DNA of 64,000 bases from Arcobacter sp. Its GTDB lineage: Bacteria; Campylobacterota; Campylobacteria; Campylobacterales; Arcobacteraceae. Under the pieces are notes generated by a model that was given only the letters and a program-made list of their open reading frames with translations, did not search any database and was not told the origin of the DNA. The stretch spans positions 96,023 to 160,022 of the forward strand of contig JAIFNA010000002.1 in assembly GCA_020048055.1 (NCBI GenBank). Reading direction: 5' to 3'. Made by a program: the position numbers and the translations under genes. This document shows, piece by piece, positions 3,268 through 58,365 of the stretch (within the stretch, counting starts at the first letter, position 1; each line of letters opens with the position of its first letter).

Positions 3268-6092
<2,825 letters not shown>

Positions 6093-6113
6093 ATCGCCAA
6101 AGGGAAATAAATA

Positions 6114-6590
6114 ATGCAAAAAGAGCCAATGACAAGCGAAGTGTTTGACAAAATAACAGCACTTCTAAATGAATTAAAAACCGTTGATAGACCTAAAATA
6201 CTAGTAGCTATCGAAGAAGCACGACAACTAGGTGATCTAAAAGAAAACGCAGAATACCATGCTGCTAGAGAGGAACAAGCAAGTATAAATAAAAGAATTT
6301 CAGAACTTGAAGACACAATAACTAAAGCAATAGTGATTGACCCAACAACACTAAAGCATGACAAAGTTAGTTTTGGCTCAACAGTTATACTTCTAAATCT
6401 TGATGATGAAAGCAAAATTACTTACAAGATTGTTAGTTCATTTGATAGTAATCCAGAAATTGGGCACATCTCATTTCATTCACCTCTAGCAAAACAACTT
6501 TTAGGGAAAATGGAAGGTGATGAAGTTCACGCAGTTTTACCTGGTGGAAAAAAAGAATTTGAAGTTTTAGAGATAAAGTATGTCAACTAA
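6114..6590 (+). CDS. greA: Transcription elongation factor GreA
   Basis: A 158-aa protein of exactly the family size. The N-terminal coiled coil holds RQLGDLKENAEYHAAREEQ, with the acidic tip (Asp and Glu) that enters the RNA polymerase secondary channel and stimulates cleavage of backtracked transcripts. The C-terminal FKBP-like domain ends FHSPLAKQLLGKMEGDEV. Its end overlaps the start of argC by 11 bp. Confidence 0.96.
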   Translation: MQKEPMTSEVFDKITALLNELKTVDRPKILVAIEEARQLGDLKENAEYHAAREEQASINKRISELEDTITKAIVIDPTTLKHDKVSFGSTVILLNLDDESKITYKIVSSFDSNPEIGHISFHSPLAKQLLGKMEGDEVHAVLPGGKKEFEVLEIKYVN

Positions 6591-7611
6591 CAAAATAGAT
6601 GTTGCAATAATTGGAGCTAGTGGCTACACAGGCCTAGAACTTCTAAAAATTATTATAAATCACCCGATTTTCAACATCACTTATGTGGCAAATAGTGAAG
6701 GAAATATTAGCGTTTCAGCTCTTCATCCATCTCTTAAGGGTGTATTTGAAATGACTGTTTCAAAAGCAGATACATCTGAAATTATCAAAAAAGCAACTGT
6801 TGTATTTCTAGCACTTCCACATCAAGCCTCTATGGGATTTGCAAAACAACTTATCAATCTTGATAGTGATAAAAAACTAAAAATTATAGATTTAAGTGCT
6901 GATTATAGACTAGAACTAGCTACTTATGAAAAACATTACTGTCCTCATGAAGATGCTCTAAATCTGCCAAATGCAGTTTACGGTATGCCTGAATTTTATA
7001 GAGACGCTATAAAACAAGCAAATCTAGTTGCAAATCCAGGATGTTATCCAACGGCATCTTTGTTAGCATTAATCCCATTTTTAGAATATATTGATGAAAA
7101 CTCTAGTGTATTTATAGATGCAAAAAGTGGAATCAGTGGCGCAGGGAAAAAATTAAGTGATGCAACTAGCTTTGTAAGTGTTAGTGAAAACATGACAGCT
7201 TACAATCCATTTAAACATCGTCACACTCCAGAAATTATTGAAAAAGCAAAATTAGTTGGAAACAAAAACCTAAAAATTAATTTTGTTCCACATCTTATTC
7301 CAGTAACTCGTGGTATGCTTGTAAGTGTTTATGTTTCTCTAAATCAAAAAATAGATAGTAAAAAAGTATTAGAAGATTTTTACAAAAATGAAGAATTTGT
7401 AAGAATTAGCAACACTCCAGTTGATATTAAAAATACAAGTGGAACCAACTTTTGTGATATTTTTGTAGCACAAAATGGAGATGATTTATTTATCAATAGC
7501 AGTATCGATAACCTTCTAAAAGGTGCTTCAAGTGCAGCTGTTGTAAATGCAAATCTAATGTGCGGACTAGAAGAAAATTGTGGTATTCCAAAAATAGCCT
7601 ATGTACCATAA
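6580..7611 (+). CDS. argC: N-acetyl-gamma-glutamyl-phosphate reductase
   Basis: ArgC reduces N-acetylglutamyl phosphate to the semialdehyde in arginine synthesis. The 343-aa product has the N-terminal NADP-binding GASGYTGLELL, the active-site Cys in ANPGCYPTA, and HRHTPEI with the catalytic His. It overlaps greA by 11 bp upstream and the phosphoesterase gene by 11 bp downstream. argF lies apart at 48.4-49.3 kb, so arginine genes are scattered. Confidence 0.96.
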   Translation: MSTNKIDVAIIGASGYTGLELLKIIINHPIFNITYVANSEGNISVSALHPSLKGVFEMTVSKADTSEIIKKATVVFLALPHQASMGFAKQLINLDSDKKLKIIDLSADYRLELATYEKHYCPHEDALNLPNAVYGMPEFYRDAIKQANLVANPGCYPTASLLALIPFLEYIDENSSVFIDAKSGISGAGKKLSDATSFVSVSENMTAYNPFKHRHTPEIIEKAKLVGNKNLKINFVPHLIPVTRGMLVSVYVSLNQKIDSKKVLEDFYKNEEFVRISNTPVDIKNTSGTNFCDIFVAQNGDDLFINSSIDNLLKGASSAAVVNANLMCGLEENCGIPKIAYVP

Positions 7612-8347
7612 CCTAAATATCTCAATTAAATCAGGAGCTATTTTAATCTCAGATGCACACTACAATCCAAACAGAACAGAGTTATTTTTCTTTTTAAAAT
7701 CAATTCTTGATGGGGAGATAAAAACTACTCAAATTGTACTTATGGGTGATATTTTTGATTTTTTAGCTTCCCAAATAGATTATTTTACCATTCAAAACAA
7801 AGAGATGATTGAACTTCTAAATGAATTATCACAAACTATTGAGATTATTTATCTTGAGGGAAATCACGACTACAACTTAAAAGAGTTATTTTCAAATATA
7901 AAAGTTATCCCAAGAGATAATCAACCAGTAATTTGTGAATTTTGGGACGAAACCAAACAATATTCAAACAAAAAAATAAGAAAAATAATCCTATCACACG
8001 GTGATATTTTTACACCAAAGGGTTATAATTTGTATACTTCAATTATTAGAAATAGTCGATTTTTAAACTTTTTAAACTTTATAGATTTTAAAAATTGGCT
8101 AACAAAAAAGATAGACTTTTGGCTTAGAAAAAAAGACTTAAGTGAGCAATTTGAAGATTTTGAGATATTTGCAATTAGACGCTTACTTCTTTACAAAACA
8201 CACAAAAGTGATTTTATCATTGAGGGACATTTTCATCAAGGTAAAAGCTACAAACATTACACAAACTTACCAGCTTTTGGGATAGCTTGTGAGTACAAAG
8301 TGTTTCCAAATAGAGAAATTTTACAATTCAAAAGAGATAATAAATGA
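7601..8347 (+). CDS. Metallophosphoesterase, probable UDP-2,3-diacylglucosamine diphosphatase (LpxH-like)
   Basis: The 248-aa product carries the complete calcineurin-type motif set: D18-x-H20 (SDAHYNPNR), GD50xxD (GDIFDF), GN88H89D (GNHDYN), SH133GD and GHFHQGK near residue 203, so it should bind two metal ions. Length and the DAHY/GNHD pattern fit the LpxH family, which releases UMP to form lipid X in lipid A synthesis. Generic phosphoesterase function cannot be ruled out. It overlaps argC by 11 bp and the secretion gene after it by 4 bp. Confidence 0.75.
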   Translation: MYHNLNISIKSGAILISDAHYNPNRTELFFFLKSILDGEIKTTQIVLMGDIFDFLASQIDYFTIQNKEMIELLNELSQTIEIIYLEGNHDYNLKELFSNIKVIPRDNQPVICEFWDETKQYSNKKIRKIILSHGDIFTPKGYNLYTSIIRNSRFLNFLNFIDFKNWLTKKIDFWLRKKDLSEQFEDFEIFAIRRLLLYKTHKSDFIIEGHFHQGKSYKHYTNLPAFGIACEYKVFPNREILQFKRDNK

Positions 8348-9318
8348 GAACAATTTTTTTATCCAAAGAGACACTTTACGAACAACACAAAAAAAGAGAG
8401 AAATTAAACATTATCCTTTCGCCAGAATTTTATTGGGTAAAAATTTTTAATATCCCAGTACCAAATACACAAAGTGCAATTTTACTCCTTCCAAACCTTT
8501 TTGAGGAGTATTTTCCAACCATTGGATATAGTTTTTATATCATCAAACTTGAAAATAATAAATATCTATCGTTTGCTTATGATGAAAAATTGATATTTGA
8601 ACAACTCAAGAAATCAAAAATTCCAACAAAAAAAATCATAAATATCTATTTTGCACAAAACGAATTTGACACCTATTTTAAGAAAAAACTTTTTGGCTTC
8701 GAAGATGGTGAGATATCAAAAACAAATAAACCACAATGTCTAAAACACAAAAATGAAATCTTTATATACAGAGAAAACCTCTTTTTAAAACTACCGCAAA
8801 ATTTAGCAGATAATTATAAAGATAAAAATGATTTAGATGAGATAAATATCTCCGCACTTGAACTTTCAGCCCACTCATTTAACTTTGATAGCTACAAAAA
8901 ATACATGGAAAATCGACCTTTATTTATAGCAAGTGGAATACTTTTTACCCTTGGTTGCTTGTTGCTTCTTCAAGGATTTATCTTAAATAGCACTTCAAAT
9001 GGCTACCCATCAAAGATTGAACAAATCAAAGAGGAGTATAGTTTGCCAAAAAGTTTGATTGAGACAAACGCCTTACTTGATGAGTACAAAAGTATAGAGG
9101 CAAAAAATCAAAAATCAAGTGAAGCGATTGAGTTTATTTTAGCCCTAACGGTAGCAAACAACTACACAATAGATACTTTAAATATTGAAAATGGGAAATT
9201 TATCGTGATATTTAAAAAACTAAATATCGATTTAGTTAGGGAAAAAATAGTTCAAAAATACAAAAATAGTATTTTAAAAACTGACAATGAAAATGTTATA
9301 GTGGAGATAAAACTATGA
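8344..9318 (+). CDS. Type II secretion GspL-like inner-membrane protein
   Basis: A 324-aa protein with a cytoplasmic N-terminal region (1-190), one membrane helix (about 192-214) and a ~110-aa periplasmic tail containing a possible coiled coil and a small alpha/beta domain. This is the GspL/PilMN-type topology that links the assembly ATPase to the periplasmic ring. Sequence similarity alone would not identify it. The call rests on topology and on its place ahead of M-, N-, C-, D- and E-like genes, with 4-bp overlaps on both sides. Confidence 0.55.
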   Translation: MRTIFLSKETLYEQHKKREKLNIILSPEFYWVKIFNIPVPNTQSAILLLPNLFEEYFPTIGYSFYIIKLENNKYLSFAYDEKLIFEQLKKSKIPTKKIINIYFAQNEFDTYFKKKLFGFEDGEISKTNKPQCLKHKNEIFIYRENLFLKLPQNLADNYKDKNDLDEINISALELSAHSFNFDSYKKYMENRPLFIASGILFTLGCLLLLQGFILNSTSNGYPSKIEQIKEEYSLPKSLIETNALLDEYKSIEAKNQKSSEAIEFILALTVANNYTIDTLNIENGKFIVIFKKLNIDLVREKIVQKYKNSILKTDNENVIVEIKL

Positions 9319-52355: not shown

Positions 52356-52380
52356 AACCACAAAAATTAATTTTGTGGTT
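52356..52380. terminator. Terminator overlapping the end of the response-regulator gene
   Basis: AACCACAAAA / TTTTGTGGTT (10-bp stem, 5-nt loop). On the minus strand it is followed by CGATTTTTTT. The stem includes the last codons and the stop of the minus-strand regulator gene (52367). It also lies 23 bp past the converging plus-strand gene, so it may serve both. Confidence 0.65.
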
Positions 52381-53107
52381 GTTTTGCTATAAGTCTATAT
52401 CCATGACCATATATATTTTCTACAATGTTTACAGGAACTTTTTGTCTTAACCTTTTAATTATCGACTTAATACTGTCTGCTGAAAATGGTTTTGTTTTAT
52501 TATCCTCATCAAGTAAAATATAAAGTTCGTCACTTGCAAAAATTCTCTGTGGGTTTTGAGTTAAAAGATCAACAATAACAATTTCATTATGTGATAATTT
52601 TATAGACTCACCATTATGTCTTAGCTCTTTAAACAATTTATTCCAAACAAAATTATCATCTAAAATAAACTCATTATGACTTCCATCTTCTATCTCATTT
52701 CCAATCACATCAAATAATACATCTACAATTTGTTTGGCAGTAAATGGTTTTTGTATAAATCTTGATATTCCCAAATTTATAAAAGATATAAGGTCATTTG
52801 TATCACTATAAGCAGATGTAACAATAATTTTTTGATCTCTATTTTGGCGTAAAATCTTTTGCACTAATTCATTTCCATTAAGTTTTGGCATTCTAATATC
52901 TGTCACAACCAAATCATAAGTTGAGTTTCTTTCATATTTGAATGCTTCATACTTCAAAAGTGCCTCTTCTCCATCATTTGCTGTATCTACTTCGTTAAAA
53001 ATATTTTTAAAAATTGATTTTGTCTTATTTTGCAATAACATATCGTCTTCCACATACAAAACTTTTAAATTTCTTGCTACATTTCTTAATCTTTCTAAAA
53101 TAATCAT
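52367..53107 (-). CDS. OmpR-family response regulator
   Basis: The 246-aa product has an N-terminal REC domain (VLYVEDD, acceptor Asp70 in VVTDIRMPKLNG, Lys in RFIQKPF) and a C-terminal winged-helix Trans_reg_C domain (about 160-242, ending VNIVENIYGHGYRL). It should bind DNA as a dimer at direct or inverted repeats. It overlaps the upstream kinase gene by 4 bp (ATGA), so that kinase is probably its partner. The inverted repeat at 55073-55117 is a candidate target. Confidence 0.93.
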   Translation of the reverse strand: MIILERLRNVARNLKVLYVEDDMLLQNKTKSIFKNIFNEVDTANDGEEALLKYEAFKYERNSTYDLVVTDIRMPKLNGNELVQKILRQNRDQKIIVTSAYSDTNDLISFINLGISRFIQKPFTAKQIVDVLFDVIGNEIEDGSHNEFILDDNFVWNKLFKELRHNGESIKLSHNEIVIVDLLTQNPQRIFASDELYILLDEDNKTKPFSADSIKSIIKRLRQKVPVNIVENIYGHGYRLIAKQPQN

Positions 53108-53847
53108 CTATTTATCTCCATTTTAAAACTTAGTCCAACTTCATTATTTTGAACTATTATATCACCATTATGATGTTCTTTGAGTATTTTTTTTGCCATA
53201 TAAAGCCCGAGTCCTATTCCAAAACTATTATCTTTTGTTGTGAAATCAGGGGAAAAAATAATTGGTAAATACTCATCTTTAATACCGCCACCATTATCAC
53301 TAAATAAAATATCAATTCCATTGCAATGATCTATTGTTTTTATCTTAATCTCTTTATGTTTCATATCTTTTTTTTCAAAATTTTCCAATGAATTATTAAA
53401 TAAATTAAGCATCAAATGTATTATCTCATTTTGATAATGCTCGATTAGCAACTTACTTTCAAAATCAAAATCAACTTGAATATCACCACAAGTTAATATA
53501 CCTTTAATCAAATTGAAAGCTTTAGTAATTGAATGATTAACCTCTGCTTTAATTTTTTTATTTTCTGGTTTATAAAAATCTCTAAAATCATCAATAATTG
53601 ATGTAAGTGATTGAGTGTATGTTTCTATATCATTTAGTTGTTCATCTATATATCTAAAAAAATCATCATTTGACCGTTTTATTTCAAGATTTTTAAAATA
53701 AATTTTCATCCTCAAATCAATTGTAGTTGCAGCAATTGCAGCCAATGGCTGGCGCCATTGATGAGCAATCATACTTATCATGTCACCCATTTTAGAATTG
53801 TGAGATTGAGCAACAATTAAATTTTCTTCTTGTGTATTATTTTTCAT
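53104..53847 (-). CDS. Sensorless histidine kinase
   Basis: I start it at ATG 53847 (MKNNTQEENLIVAQS). A TTG five codons upstream (53862) is possible. The 247-aa product is just a catalytic core: the H-box [18 protein letters not shown] with His29, and HATPase with NLFNNSLENF, DNGGGIKD and GIGLGLYMAKKI. It has no sensor, PAS or membrane part, so the signal must come from another protein, perhaps the REC-HK encoded 29 bp upstream (53876-55030). Confidence 0.87.
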   Translation of the reverse strand: MKNNTQEENLIVAQSHNSKMGDMISMIAHQWRQPLAAIAATTIDLRMKIYFKNLEIKRSNDDFFRYIDEQLNDIETYTQSLTSIIDDFRDFYKPENKKIKAEVNHSITKAFNLIKGILTCGDIQVDFDFESKLLIEHYQNEIIHLMLNLFNNSLENFEKKDMKHKEIKIKTIDHCNGIDILFSDNGGGIKDEYLPIIFSPDFTTKDNSFGIGLGLYMAKKILKEHHNGDIIVQNNEVGLSFKMEINR

Positions 53848-53875
53848 TATTAAAGTTTCCAATTACAAACACCAT

Positions 53876-55030
53876 TTATTCTTTTAGAGACACGATTGAA
53901 ATTACAAAAGAAGCACCATTGCCATATTTTGTCTTTATATTTTCAACACTGATTGTTCCATCAATTTTTTTAAGTATTTGGGCTGACATATACAATCCTA
54001 TTCCAGTCCCCTCTGTTGCCTCCTTTGTTGTAAAATGTGGCTCAAAAATATGCTCAATTATATCAAGTGGTATTCCTCCACCGTTATCTGTAACCGTTAT
54101 TATAACAACTTTTTGGTATGAGTCTTCCACCTGAGATGCATCAAATATTATTTTTCTATCTTCAATGTCATTTGCTTTAAATGCGTCTCTTGAATTATTA
54201 ATGAGATTAATAAAAATATGTATGAACTCAGTTCGTATACAATTAATTTCACACTTATCCATAGATTCAAAGAGTAATTCTATTTGGTTAGACACTAAAA
54301 CATTTTGCATTATTTTTCCAACAGAACTAATAAGCTCTTTTAAACATATACTCTCAAGTGGCTGATTCGGTCTAAAAAAACTTCGAAAACTATCAATTGT
54401 TTCAACTAAATGCTGAGTTTGCTGATATATATTGTTGTTCGTTCTAATAACTTCTTCAAAAGGTATTGTTCCATTTATTTCAAGCTTGTAGTTAACAGCT
54501 TGAGCCATAACTGATATTGCAGCTACTGGCTGTTTCCATTGATGGGCTATTGAATCTATCATCTCTCCCATTTGTGCCATCTTTGATTGCTCAATAATAT
54601 GTTTTTCTGTCATTTGCTTTATAGTTATTTTGCGCACTTCAGAGTCTATTGCATAAAAGAACTTTTTCATATTAACAGGCTTAACTATAAAACTTGAAAT
54701 TCCAAGTGTTATAAGTTCAAGCAATCTATTTGCATCATCATAAGCTGATGTAACTATTACTGCTTGTTGTTCATTAATAGCTTTTATGTCATAAATTAAA
54801 CTTATTCCATCTTTTTTTGGCATTTTAATGTCAGTTATAACAAGATCGTATGGTTTCTTTACATATGCTTCAATTCCTTCGATACCATCACACGCAACAT
54901 CAACTTTACTAAATATTGTTTCAAGTAGATTTTTTGTTTTCTCTTGAATTGTAATATTATCCTCTACATACAAAACATTTAAACCTTTTGATGCGCGGAT
55001 TAGCTCTTTAAATTTATTTATATCATGCAT
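53876..55030 (-). CDS. REC-histidine kinase hybrid
   Basis: I start it at ATG 55030 (MHDINKFKELIR) behind GAGGTGA. The frame runs on to a GTG at 55084 without a ribosome-binding site and across the inverted repeat. The 384-aa product has an N-terminal REC domain (VLYVEDN, Asp67 in VITDIKMPKKDG, FIVKP) then the H-box MGEMIDSIAHQWKQPVAA (His163) and HATPase ([30 protein letters not shown]). A REC at the front means the kinase may be gated by a phosphoryl signal. It leads the three-gene operon with the kinase and OmpR-type regulator. Confidence 0.9.
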   Translation of the reverse strand: MHDINKFKELIRASKGLNVLYVEDNITIQEKTKNLLETIFSKVDVACDGIEGIEAYVKKPYDLVITDIKMPKKDGISLIYDIKAINEQQAVIVTSAYDDANRLLELITLGISSFIVKPVNMKKFFYAIDSEVRKITIKQMTEKHIIEQSKMAQMGEMIDSIAHQWKQPVAAISVMAQAVNYKLEINGTIPFEEVIRTNNNIYQQTQHLVETIDSFRSFFRPNQPLESICLKELISSVGKIMQNVLVSNQIELLFESMDKCEINCIRTEFIHIFINLINNSRDAFKANDIEDRKIIFDASQVEDSYQKVVIITVTDNGGGIPLDIIEHIFEPHFTTKEATEGTGIGLYMSAQILKKIDGTISVENIKTKYGNGASFVISIVSLKE

Positions 55031-55072
55031 TAAATTCACCTCATTTTTAATATTGTATCTAAAAAAAGTGAT

Positions 55073-55117
55073 TAAAAGTGTCACAAAACTTAATATAAAT
55101 TAACTGTGACACTTTTA
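55073..55117. promoter_or_regulatory. Inverted-repeat operator in the divergent promoter
   Basis: Two perfectly complementary 13-bp arms, TAAAAGTGTCACA (55073-55085) and TGTGACACTTTTA (55105-55117), with a 19-bp spacer, sit between the minus operon (REC-HK, kinase, regulator) and the plus-strand CheA-CheX-like gene. A bound regulator could control both directions. Confidence 0.72.
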
Positions 55118-55152
55118 TATGCTATTATTTTTAATTAAAAATGGAGATTCAA

Positions 55153-57909
55153 ATGGATATTAAAAAACTAAAAAGTTCACTTAGTGACTATTCCATTTTA
55201 TATGCTGAAGACGATGAGATGGTACTAGCTAGATCTTCAAAAGTATTTGAAAATATTTTTCAAAATATAGAGACCGCAACAAATGGTGACGAAGCACTTC
55301 TGAAATACAAAAAATATTTTGCATTAGAAAATAAATATTACGATATTGTAATAAGTGATATAAATATGCCAAAATTAAATGGCATTGAATTATCAAAAGA
55401 GATAAAAAAATTAAATCCCGCTCAAGAGATACTAATAATATCGGCTCACAATCAATCAAATATTTTACAAGACCTAATTAGCGTTGGTGTTAGTATTTTT
55501 ATACATAAGCCAATTAAACTAAAAGAACTTTTAGGAGCAATAACAAAAATTCATCTCTCCTTAATTGATACAAAACGAAAGCTTGACAGCTCAAATGAAG
55601 CGATAAGATTAAATCATGAGTTTGAAGGTGTTTTAAAGGGATATGACTCTCTAATCATAGCATCAAGAACAGATGCGAATGGGATAATAACTTATACTAG
55701 CCAAGCATTTGAAAAAATCTCAGGCTACACAAAAGAGGAATTAATTGGTCAAAATCATAATATTGTTCGTGATTCAGATATGCCAGATGAATTATTTACC
55801 AACATGTGGGCGACGATTAAAAGTGGGAAAATTTGGAAAGGGAAAATAAAAAATAGAGCTAAAAATGGGGTTCCATATTGGGCTAAAACATCAATTGGTC
55901 CATATTTTGACAGAGATGGAAATATCATAGGATACAACTCAATTAGAGAAGATATTACGGCAAAAATAAAAGCAAAAGAACTAAATAGAAAAATAACTCT
56001 ACTTTTAAGGCATGCAAATAATGGTTATTTACTATTCAACAGGAATATGGAAATTGAACAAGGATACTCAAATATATGCACGGAACTCTTTGGAAAACAT
56101 TATCTATACAGTGAAAACATTGTTGATGTTTTATTTAGTCAAAATGATTTAAAAAATAAAAATAGTATGACAGAAGGTGTAAAAGCCATATTTGGGGCAA
56201 CTGATAAATTACAACAAGAACTTTTTGTATCACTCCTTCCTACTAAAAGTTTTGTAAACAATAAACACCTACAAATAAGTTATAAGGTTGTAGACAAAAA
56301 TAATATTATGGTTATCATAAAAGATGAAACTGAGGAGATAAGACTAAAGTATGAACTTGAATTGCAATATCTACATCAAAAAATGATTATACAAATCATC
56401 TCAAATATAACCGATTTCCTTGAGCTCAGAGGTTCATTTATAAATTTTACAGAAACAATCTTTCAAGACAAGACAAAGAATGAAATCTTTATTGAGAAAA
56501 ATAATTACAAATCAATTCTAAGAGAATTACATATCTTTAAAGGTTCATTTGGACAACTATTCCTCCACAACACTCCAAATAGTATTCATGCGCTAGAAAC
56601 AAAAATTTTGCAAATGGAGTGTGAGCAAATTACACATAGCACAATAGATGAACATGAAAATATTAGGGAAATGTTTGCACTTGATCAAATGATAATAGAT
56701 AAGATGGTTGGGGAAAATTATTTAAAAGAGCAACAAAAAAATATTCAAGATACATATCTCTTATATGACCTCAAACATCAAATCAAAGAGATGATAATAG
56801 ATCCTGTAAATATTAATTTTAAATTGCAATCACTACTAAGTCAAATAAACTCTTTATCTTATGTTTCAATACACAAAGTATTAGAAAAGCATATCTCATA
56901 CGTATCATATATAAGCGAAACACTACATAAAAAAGTAAATGAACTAAAAATTTTAGGTGACAAGGAACTTATGGTTCCGTCTACTTTTAGAGCTTTTTTC
57001 AGAAATTTTCTCCATATTTACAAAAATGCAATAGATCATGGTACAAAAATAGGTGAGCTATCAAATTCAAGAAGTTTAACAATAACTTGTAGATATTTTT
57101 ACCATGATGAGTACCTTTTTATTGAAGTAAGCGATGATGGAATTGGGATAGATATGGATGCAATAATAAAAGAAGCTTTGGATAGAAATATCGTTACACA
57201 AGATGAATTAAATAATTTATCAAATAGTGAGAAACTTTTATTGGTTTTCAAAGATCATCTCACAACAAAAAAAACAGCAAATCTTATCTCAGGAAGGGGG
57301 ATAGGTATGTCATCTTTAAAACATTCATGTGAAGAGTTAAATGGTGAAATTGAGATACATAATACAAAAGAGAAAGGATTATCGTATCTCTTTAGAATTC
57401 CGATGAAATTACCATCAAACGAATTAGAACACACTGAGCACTTGAATGAATCAATGTCAATCCTTGAAATCGTAACAAATAAAGTAAAAATATTTTTACG
57501 AGAAGAGCTTGAAATGGGAATTATCGATGTAAGATATTCAAATCACAATGATTTAGATGCAAAACTTCATTCGAGCATGCGAATTAGTGACAATGCAACC
57601 ATTATATTTAGTGCACAAAAAAGTATTGTCTCAAGGTTTGGTGAGGTATTTTTTACAGAACATTTTTTACTTGATGAGCATTTAGAGAATTTACTTGATG
57701 AAGTATCCAAAGAGATGATAAATACAATTGTTGGATTAGCAATACAAGATTTATCACAAAAATCTCTAAGTATTACACTTGATACCCCAAAAATATTAAC
57801 AAAAAGTGAAGTTGAACAATTATTGAACAACGAGCATTTTAAAATACTAACAATTTTAATTCAAACTGATTTTGGAAATTTAATTTGTAGACTAGTGCAA
57901 CAAAAGTAA
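55153..57909 (+). CDS. REC-PAS-Hpt-CheA-like ATPase-CheX fusion protein
   Basis: I start it at ATG 55153, behind GGAG. An ATG at 55141 lies within that ribosome-binding site. The 918-aa soluble product has REC (Asp69 in VISDINMPKLNG), PAS (about 165-272), a second PAS-like region (about 280-392), an Hpt-like helix LRELHIFKGSFGQL (His460, Lys463), a CheA-type ATPase (Asn625 in YKNAIDHG, DDGIGIDMD, GRGIGMSSLK) and a C-terminal CheX/CheC-type domain (about 765-918) with E854-x2-N857 and Pro879, resembling the phosphatase signature. No CheW-like P5 domain is seen. A CheY-like gene follows 81 bp downstream. Confidence 0.85.
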   Translation: MDIKKLKSSLSDYSILYAEDDEMVLARSSKVFENIFQNIETATNGDEALLKYKKYFALENKYYDIVISDINMPKLNGIELSKEIKKLNPAQEILIISAHNQSNILQDLISVGVSIFIHKPIKLKELLGAITKIHLSLIDTKRKLDSSNEAIRLNHEFEGVLKGYDSLIIASRTDANGIITYTSQAFEKISGYTKEELIGQNHNIVRDSDMPDELFTNMWATIKSGKIWKGKIKNRAKNGVPYWAKTSIGPYFDRDGNIIGYNSIREDITAKIKAKELNRKITLLLRHANNGYLLFNRNMEIEQGYSNICTELFGKHYLYSENIVDVLFSQNDLKNKNSMTEGVKAIFGATDKLQQELFVSLLPTKSFVNNKHLQISYKVVDKNNIMVIIKDETEEIRLKYELELQYLHQKMIIQIISNITDFLELRGSFINFTETIFQDKTKNEIFIEKNNYKSILRELHIFKGSFGQLFLHNTPNSIHALETKILQMECEQITHSTIDEHENIREMFALDQMIIDKMVGENYLKEQQKNIQDTYLLYDLKHQIKEMIIDPVNINFKLQSLLSQINSLSYVSIHKVLEKHISYVSYISETLHKKVNELKILGDKELMVPSTFRAFFRNFLHIYKNAIDHGTKIGELSNSRSLTITCRYFYHDEYLFIEVSDDGIGIDMDAIIKEALDRNIVTQDELNNLSNSEKLLLVFKDHLTTKKTANLISGRGIGMSSLKHSCEELNGEIEIHNTKEKGLSYLFRIPMKLPSNELEHTEHLNESMSILEIVTNKVKIFLREELEMGIIDVRYSNHNDLDAKLHSSMRISDNATIIFSAQKSIVSRFGEVFFTEHFLLDEHLENLLDEVSKEMINTIVGLAIQDLSQKSLSITLDTPKILTKSEVEQLLNNEHFKILTILIQTDFGNLICRLVQQK

Positions 57910-57924
57910 AAACATACCAAAAAA

Positions 57925-57950
57925 GACACTTTTAGATACTAAAATGTGTT
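57925..57950. promoter_or_regulatory. Dyad related to the divergent operator, before the CheY-like gene
   Basis: GACACTTTTA (57925-57934) matches 10 bases of the right arm of the 55073-55117 repeat. After 5 bp comes TAAAATGTGTT (57940-57950), an imperfect complement. It lies 41 bp before the CheY-like start and could be a second site for the same regulator. Confidence 0.5.
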
Positions 57951-57990
57951 ATATTTTAAATAAATAAGAAATTATATTAAAGGAAAAATA

Positions 57991-58365
57991 ATGATAAATG
58001 TTTTAATCGTCGATGACATAGGAATTATGAGGCACACAATCAAAGGACATATAATAAAATTAGGTCACCATGTAGTTGGTGAAGCTACAAATGCTGATGA
58101 GGCTGTAAATCTTTATAAAAGATTAAAACCGACAATTGTAACTATGGATATAGCAATGCCTGCTTATAACGGAATATTAAGTGGAATAGATGCTTTAAAA
58201 CTTATAAAAGAGTTTGACCATGATGCTAAAGTAATCATGATAACCTCACATGGGGAATCGGAATTAATAATTGAAGCTATACAATTAGGTGCAAAAGGGT
58301 ATATTTTAAAACCAGTTACAGAAGAAAAAATTGAAGCAATGTTAAAAAAAGTGATTGATAGATAA
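57991..58365 (+). CDS. CheY-like single-domain response regulator
   Basis: The 124-aa product is a REC domain alone: VLIVDDIG (acidic pocket), acceptor Asp53 in VTMDIAMPAYNG, MITSHG (switch Ser/Thr region), and GYILKPV (Lys). With no output domain it would act by protein contact. It follows the CheA-CheX-like fusion, which carries both a possible donor (Hpt) and a possible phosphatase (CheX) for it. Ribosome-binding site AAAGGA. Confidence 0.92.
   Translation: MINVLIVDDIGIMRHTIKGHIIKLGHHVVGEATNADEAVNLYKRLKPTIVTMDIAMPAYNGILSGIDALKLIKEFDHDAKVIMITSHGESELIIEAIQLGAKGYILKPVTEEKIEAMLKKVIDR

Follow-up and report, generated by a model that had tools for sequence, protein, structure and literature searches.

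CheA kinases are defined by a CheW domain and by their dependence on receptors. In Thermotoga maritima, whose CheA is the nearest solved structure for the P1 and P3-P4 regions of the kinase described here and whose CheX comes second after that of Borrelia, CheA and CheX are separate proteins, and CheA has a P5 domain and works in a receptor array, unlike the fusion reported below. Kinase, CheX and CheY are encoded together in Borrelia burgdorferi, in an operon whose order we take to be cheA2-cheW3-cheX-cheY3, as they are in the cassette considered here, but the Borrelia proteins are separate, CheW is present, and the system serves flagellar chemotaxis. Bifunctional HisKA sensor kinases such as EnvZ both phosphorylate and dephosphorylate their regulator, using the same helical domain for the two reactions; the predicted dual role of the fusion is alike, but its phosphatase would be a separate CheX domain. 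Fusions of CheA to CheC or CheX are known from the Leptospirae, in class F1 CheAs, and a dual kinase/phosphatase role has already been suggested for them (Berry et al., 2023; PMC10782961); CheW was present in every CheA of that set. For the Campylobacterota, the parts of PMC9321776 that treat the F3 class describe a stand-alone CheX encoded beside fliNO and assigned to flagellar chemotaxis, along with several CheYs; this CheX shares family and phylum with the one considered here, but as presented there it is not part of a kinase-cheX-cheY cassette.

In the 64,000-nucleotide window, the whole stretch of Arcobacter sp. DNA that was analyzed, a gene on the forward strand encodes a 918-residue protein in which a receiver (REC), a PAS domain, a conserved unnamed region, a P1/Hpt-like domain, a P3-like region, a P4 ATPase and CheX follow one another from the N to the C terminus (Table 1). 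Pfam placed Response_reg at residues 15-130, PAS at 169-270, HATPase_c at 620-752 and CheX at 815-888, and these matches, with family profiles and invariant residues, agree with the original prediction that a CheA-like kinase and a CheX phosphatase domain are joined in one chain. The Leptospirae fusions also combine a CheA-type kinase with a CheC/CheX phosphatase, but they keep CheW and work with receptors, whereas here CheW is absent and the inputs are REC and PAS; the full CheA with CheW that marks a Leptospirae-type fusion is thus lacking, although CheX is fused. The earlier view that no system with such a layout had been described stands for the CheW-less form, since neither the CheW-less cassette nor its fused form was found described in the literature searched (open-licence papers, an incomplete set), but not for kinase-phosphatase fusion as such, given the CheA-CheC/CheX fusions reported in Leptospirae (PMC10782961). 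The reading we favor, at a probability of roughly 0.7, is a Che-type two-component module that is soluble and independent of receptors, and in which a single dimer would both phosphorylate and dephosphorylate its CheY.

The frame is open over 922 codons (55141-57909), and starting at the in-frame ATG further upstream, at 55141, would make the product 922 residues long and raise the numbering by four. The start at 55153 was preferred because a ribosome-binding site, GGAG, lies six bases 5' of it and because the start of L092, a relative in the same genus, coincides with it (MDMNNLKDV...); the residue numbers first assigned to His460, Glu854, Asn857 and Pro879 are therefore correct. Promoter-like sites did not outnumber those in shuffled sequences, terminator-like sites were above shuffles (four, against a shuffle mean of 0.7), and none of the four lies between the kinase gene and cheY, which starts 81 bases downstream.

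Table 1. Features of the fusion gene and its surroundings (window positions; residue numbers of the 918-residue protein or, for Asp53, of the CheY-like protein).
Feature	Position	Strand	Evidence
REC-winged-helix regulator; homologue adjoins the fusion in L092 (E 3e-84)	52367..53107	-	domain search, sequence comparison
HisKA kinase, perhaps an upstream partner; homologue adjoins the L092 fusion (E 4e-60)	53104..53862	-	domain search, sequence comparison
Divergent REC-HisKA kinase; REC 36% identical to the fusion REC; possible upstream partner	53876..55084	-	domain search, alignment
Fused sensor kinase-phosphatase gene, 918 residues	55153..57909	+	
N-terminal REC, residues 15-130	55195..55542	+	Pfam Response_reg E 1e-20
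PAS domain, residues 169-270, Aer/NifL-like	55657..55962	+	Pfam PAS_9 E 4e-14; NCBIfam NifL model E 1e-20
Unnamed conserved stretch preceding P1, about residues 285-401; family core begins here	56005..56355	+	alignment, 37-38 sequences
P1/Hpt-like domain (approximate limits), HIFKGSFGQ motif	56404..56664	+	family profile against CheA P1 1tqg
His460, predicted phosphorylation site	56530..56532	+	invariant in 38/38 aligned sequences
P3-like dimerization region (approximate limits)	56698..57000	+	family profile 228-470, alignment with T. maritima CheA P3-P4 (1b3q/4xiv)
P4 CheA-type ATPase (HATPase_c), residues 620-752	57010..57408	+	Pfam E 1.6e-11
CheX phosphatase domain at the P5/CheW position	57433..57906	+	Pfam CheX (PF13690), leave-out profile, structure-profile matches
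CheX active-site residues Glu854 (57712-57714), Asn857 (57721-57723), Pro879 (57787-57789)	57712..57789	+	invariant in 22/22 sequences
CheY-like single-domain response regulator, 124 residues, TMDIAMP, phospho-acceptor Asp53; likely partner	57991..58365	+	Response_reg E 1e-25

The Hpt-like domain around His460 was upheld, though by family comparison and not by Pfam: Hpt scored 12.7 bits in the window protein, below the Pfam threshold, and 7 of 37 family members reach E<0.01, whereas a P1 profile built without the window protein scored its P1 at 76.6 bits. The family profile matched T. maritima CheA over P1 (1tqg, E 1.9e-5) and over P3-P4 (1b3q, E 4e-56) and stopped where P5 would start. The N-box, DDGxG and SGRGxG motifs of P4 are conserved in the family alignment, and the NCBIfam model CheA_Halo spans residues 567-752. 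As anticipated, a Pfam scan gave no match to a CheW/P5 domain, and the chain runs from P4 into CheX; no receptor gene adjoins the fusion gene.

By Pfam, CheX passes narrowly, with 27.4 bits for the C-terminal 158 residues alone against a cut-off of 27, and 24 bits in a scan of the whole protein. A leave-out profile, made from the relatives' 20 separately encoded CheX proteins and excluding the two fused CheX, scored the tail at 77 bits (E 5e-23; best of 200 shuffles 9.5 bits), so the search of the C-terminal region that had been proposed at the outset did find CheX. Pfam CheX is matched by all 22 CheX sequences of the family, and the family profile matches the solved CheX structures 3hzh, 1xko and 1squ of Borrelia and Thermotoga, 3hzh best. 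A structure model of the region from the single sequence reached a pLDDT of 36 and was not used. It seems unlikely that the attached CheX mainly docks CheY at the kinase, its phosphatase activity weak or lost: such a dock could stand in for the P2 domain, none having been found in the fusion, and the position four before Glu854 holds Glu, off the motif that usually has Asp or Ser there, but the catalytic signature, noticed earlier as ExxN with a proline 22 residues on, does not vary between fused and separate forms, and the separate CheX of most relatives cannot be a built-in dock.

Pfam found both proposed N-terminal control domains, and we count control by REC and PAS as supported at the level of domain content. 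The predicted phospho-acceptor of the REC, Asp69, sits in SDINMP. The PAS domain is possibly redox- or energy-related; its ligand is uncertain because the histidine of the Aer-type motif is missing, RDSD standing in the alignment where relatives have RHPD. The region between PAS and P1 matched nothing in Pfam and may be a signal relay domain peculiar to this family; relatives show GFLxF...EYS..C there. The fusion REC shares 36-38% identity with the REC domains of two neighboring genes, and homologues of the neighboring HisKA kinase and REC-winged-helix regulator lie beside the fusion in L092, so a neighboring HisKA kinase may control the fusion by acting through its REC.

A whole-protein scan of genome contigs returned a weak REC match only, and a plasmid search gave no match; the relatives came from whole-genome searches of Campylobacterota, in which the same kinase core is present in other genera and families. 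Among 44 other kinases, 23 have a separate cheX next door, five are fused to CheX, and 16 have no adjoining CheX on the same strand, some of these lying at contig ends, in tandem with other kinases or in another gene order, while about seven seem truly without. The gap between kinase and separate cheX is mostly -61 to +31 bases, and cheY usually comes next, although the order is kinase-cheY-cheX in L093 and L103. The kinase was found in 17 of 397 Campylobacterota genomes (about 4%), cassette-type CheX in 18, and both in 17 (Fisher 6e-29, with related genomes not independent). Input domains differ among the kinases and include REC-PAS, NMT1/THI5, SBP_bac_3, HAMP and Y_Y_Y. The neighboring cheX and cheY genes, the co-occurrence and the varied inputs therefore mark out a family of sensor kinases that come with a phosphatase and a regulator of their own, and of which the window holds a fused version; the fusion, first seen as an isolated oddity, proved instead to be one form of a kinase-cheX-cheY cassette spread over that 4% of the sampled genomes.

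Two loci depart from this arrangement. L130 (4858-5785, minus strand) has cheX-cheY without a kinase where the same neighborhood in L156 and L157 has kinase-cheX-cheY, which looks like kinase loss. In L101 (3206-6254, plus strand) cheX-cheY is followed by genes for Aer-like PAS, receptor-like and REC proteins, with the CheW-less kinase convergent, which may connect the cassette to energy taxis.

The CheY-like gene beside the fusion, also part of the original prediction, is confirmed by its Response_reg match, and alignments show the acidic pocket of receivers, Asp53, Thr85 and Lys107. It has a four-residue insertion after TMDIAMP in common with the CheYs of L094, L095, L096, L101 and L111. CheYs of the same type (TMDITMP-like) go with the kinase or CheX in relatives across families. 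It is very unlikely that the fused phosphatase targets another receiver, either the protein's own N-terminal REC or a canonical CheY, with the adjacent CheY a bystander or phosphate sink. The fusion does carry a REC, and its closest relative, L092, is fused without a cheY directly downstream, but one cheY sequence type accompanies the cassette across families, and in L152 CheX is fused although the kinase has no Pfam REC.

The residues listed as FliM contacts for Campylobacterota CheY in the part of PMC9321776 concerned with them, W58, K91 and K119 (E. coli numbering), are replaced in this CheY by I54, E89 and M117, so its target is probably other than the flagellar switch and the output of the module probably other than direct FliM binding. 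The same replacements speak against a divergent CheA still serving the cell's array for flagellar chemotaxis, as do the sensor domains that the fusion has of its own and the absence of CheW/P5, present in all CheAs of the PMC10782961 survey. We judge that alternative decidedly unlikely, even though P3-P4 is clearly CheA-type, seven CheW-domain matches and FliM occur elsewhere in the window genome, and the L101 cheX-cheY pair lies beside Aer-like PAS and receptor-like genes.

The genome survey that had been suggested, run within Campylobacterota, recovered kinase-CheX fusions in five further genomes: L092, L095 and L096 from the same genus as the window genome, and L152 and L111 from other families. 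The kinase core of L092 is 48% identical to that of the window; L152, a single-contig genome, has a fused CheX that scores 41.7 bits. An assembly error was ruled out as the source of the fusion by the same junction in L092 and the further fusions in L152, L096 and L111. L092 has a TAA between its REC (5803-6228) and its PAS-kinase-CheX part (6253-8565, both plus strand), either a fission or a sequence error, and L095 has a stop codon inside CheX. On the kinase tree the fused state needs four changes, at least three of them forced by well-supported branches; some may be losses, and CheX was probably joined to the kinase on more than one occasion. The tree of CheX, which has several long branches and modest supports, broadly follows the kinase tree, with the window, L092, L152, L095 and L093 grouped alike in both, so kinase and CheX have for the most part moved together.

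In the receptor-independent module that we favor, P3 would dimerize the fusion protein and P4 would phosphorylate His460 of P1, from which phosphate would pass to Asp53 of the CheY, while the attached CheX, through Glu854 and Asn857, would strip it from CheY-P. A single polypeptide would thereby set how CheY-P builds up and how it decays, and the N-terminal REC, probably phosphorylated by a neighboring HisKA kinase, would together with PAS tilt the balance between kinase and phosphatase. The module probably originated when adjacent kinase and cheX genes of the conserved cassette fused. The original prediction had thought of a timing or adaptation module; a sensory two-component module that terminates its own signal would need fewer assumptions. 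We hold it about evenly balanced whether the locus represents a distinct class, a receptor-free Che-type two-component cassette with a swappable sensor, a CheW-less CheA core, CheX and CheY, repeatedly condensed during evolution into a single kinase-phosphatase polypeptide with a target other than the flagellar switch. A CheW-less family that keeps the CheA kinase core and takes ordinary sensors illustrates how a CheA-type kinase and a two-component system can be converted into one another. Since fused forms exist alongside unfused ones, one can ask directly what advantage comes from joining a kinase to its opposing phosphatase, and the fusion offers a natural test of how linked opposing enzymes shape a signal.

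A different kind of CheX fusion was also seen in many Campylobacterota, a protein of about 460 residues whose C-terminal domain is CheX-like (E about 1e-8). By eye, its N-terminal part resembles STAS and receiver domains, and a probable ribulose-phosphate epimerase gene lies nearby in two of the three loci viewed (L158:4303-5727, minus strand; L159:3606-4988, plus strand; L161:4476-5870, minus strand).
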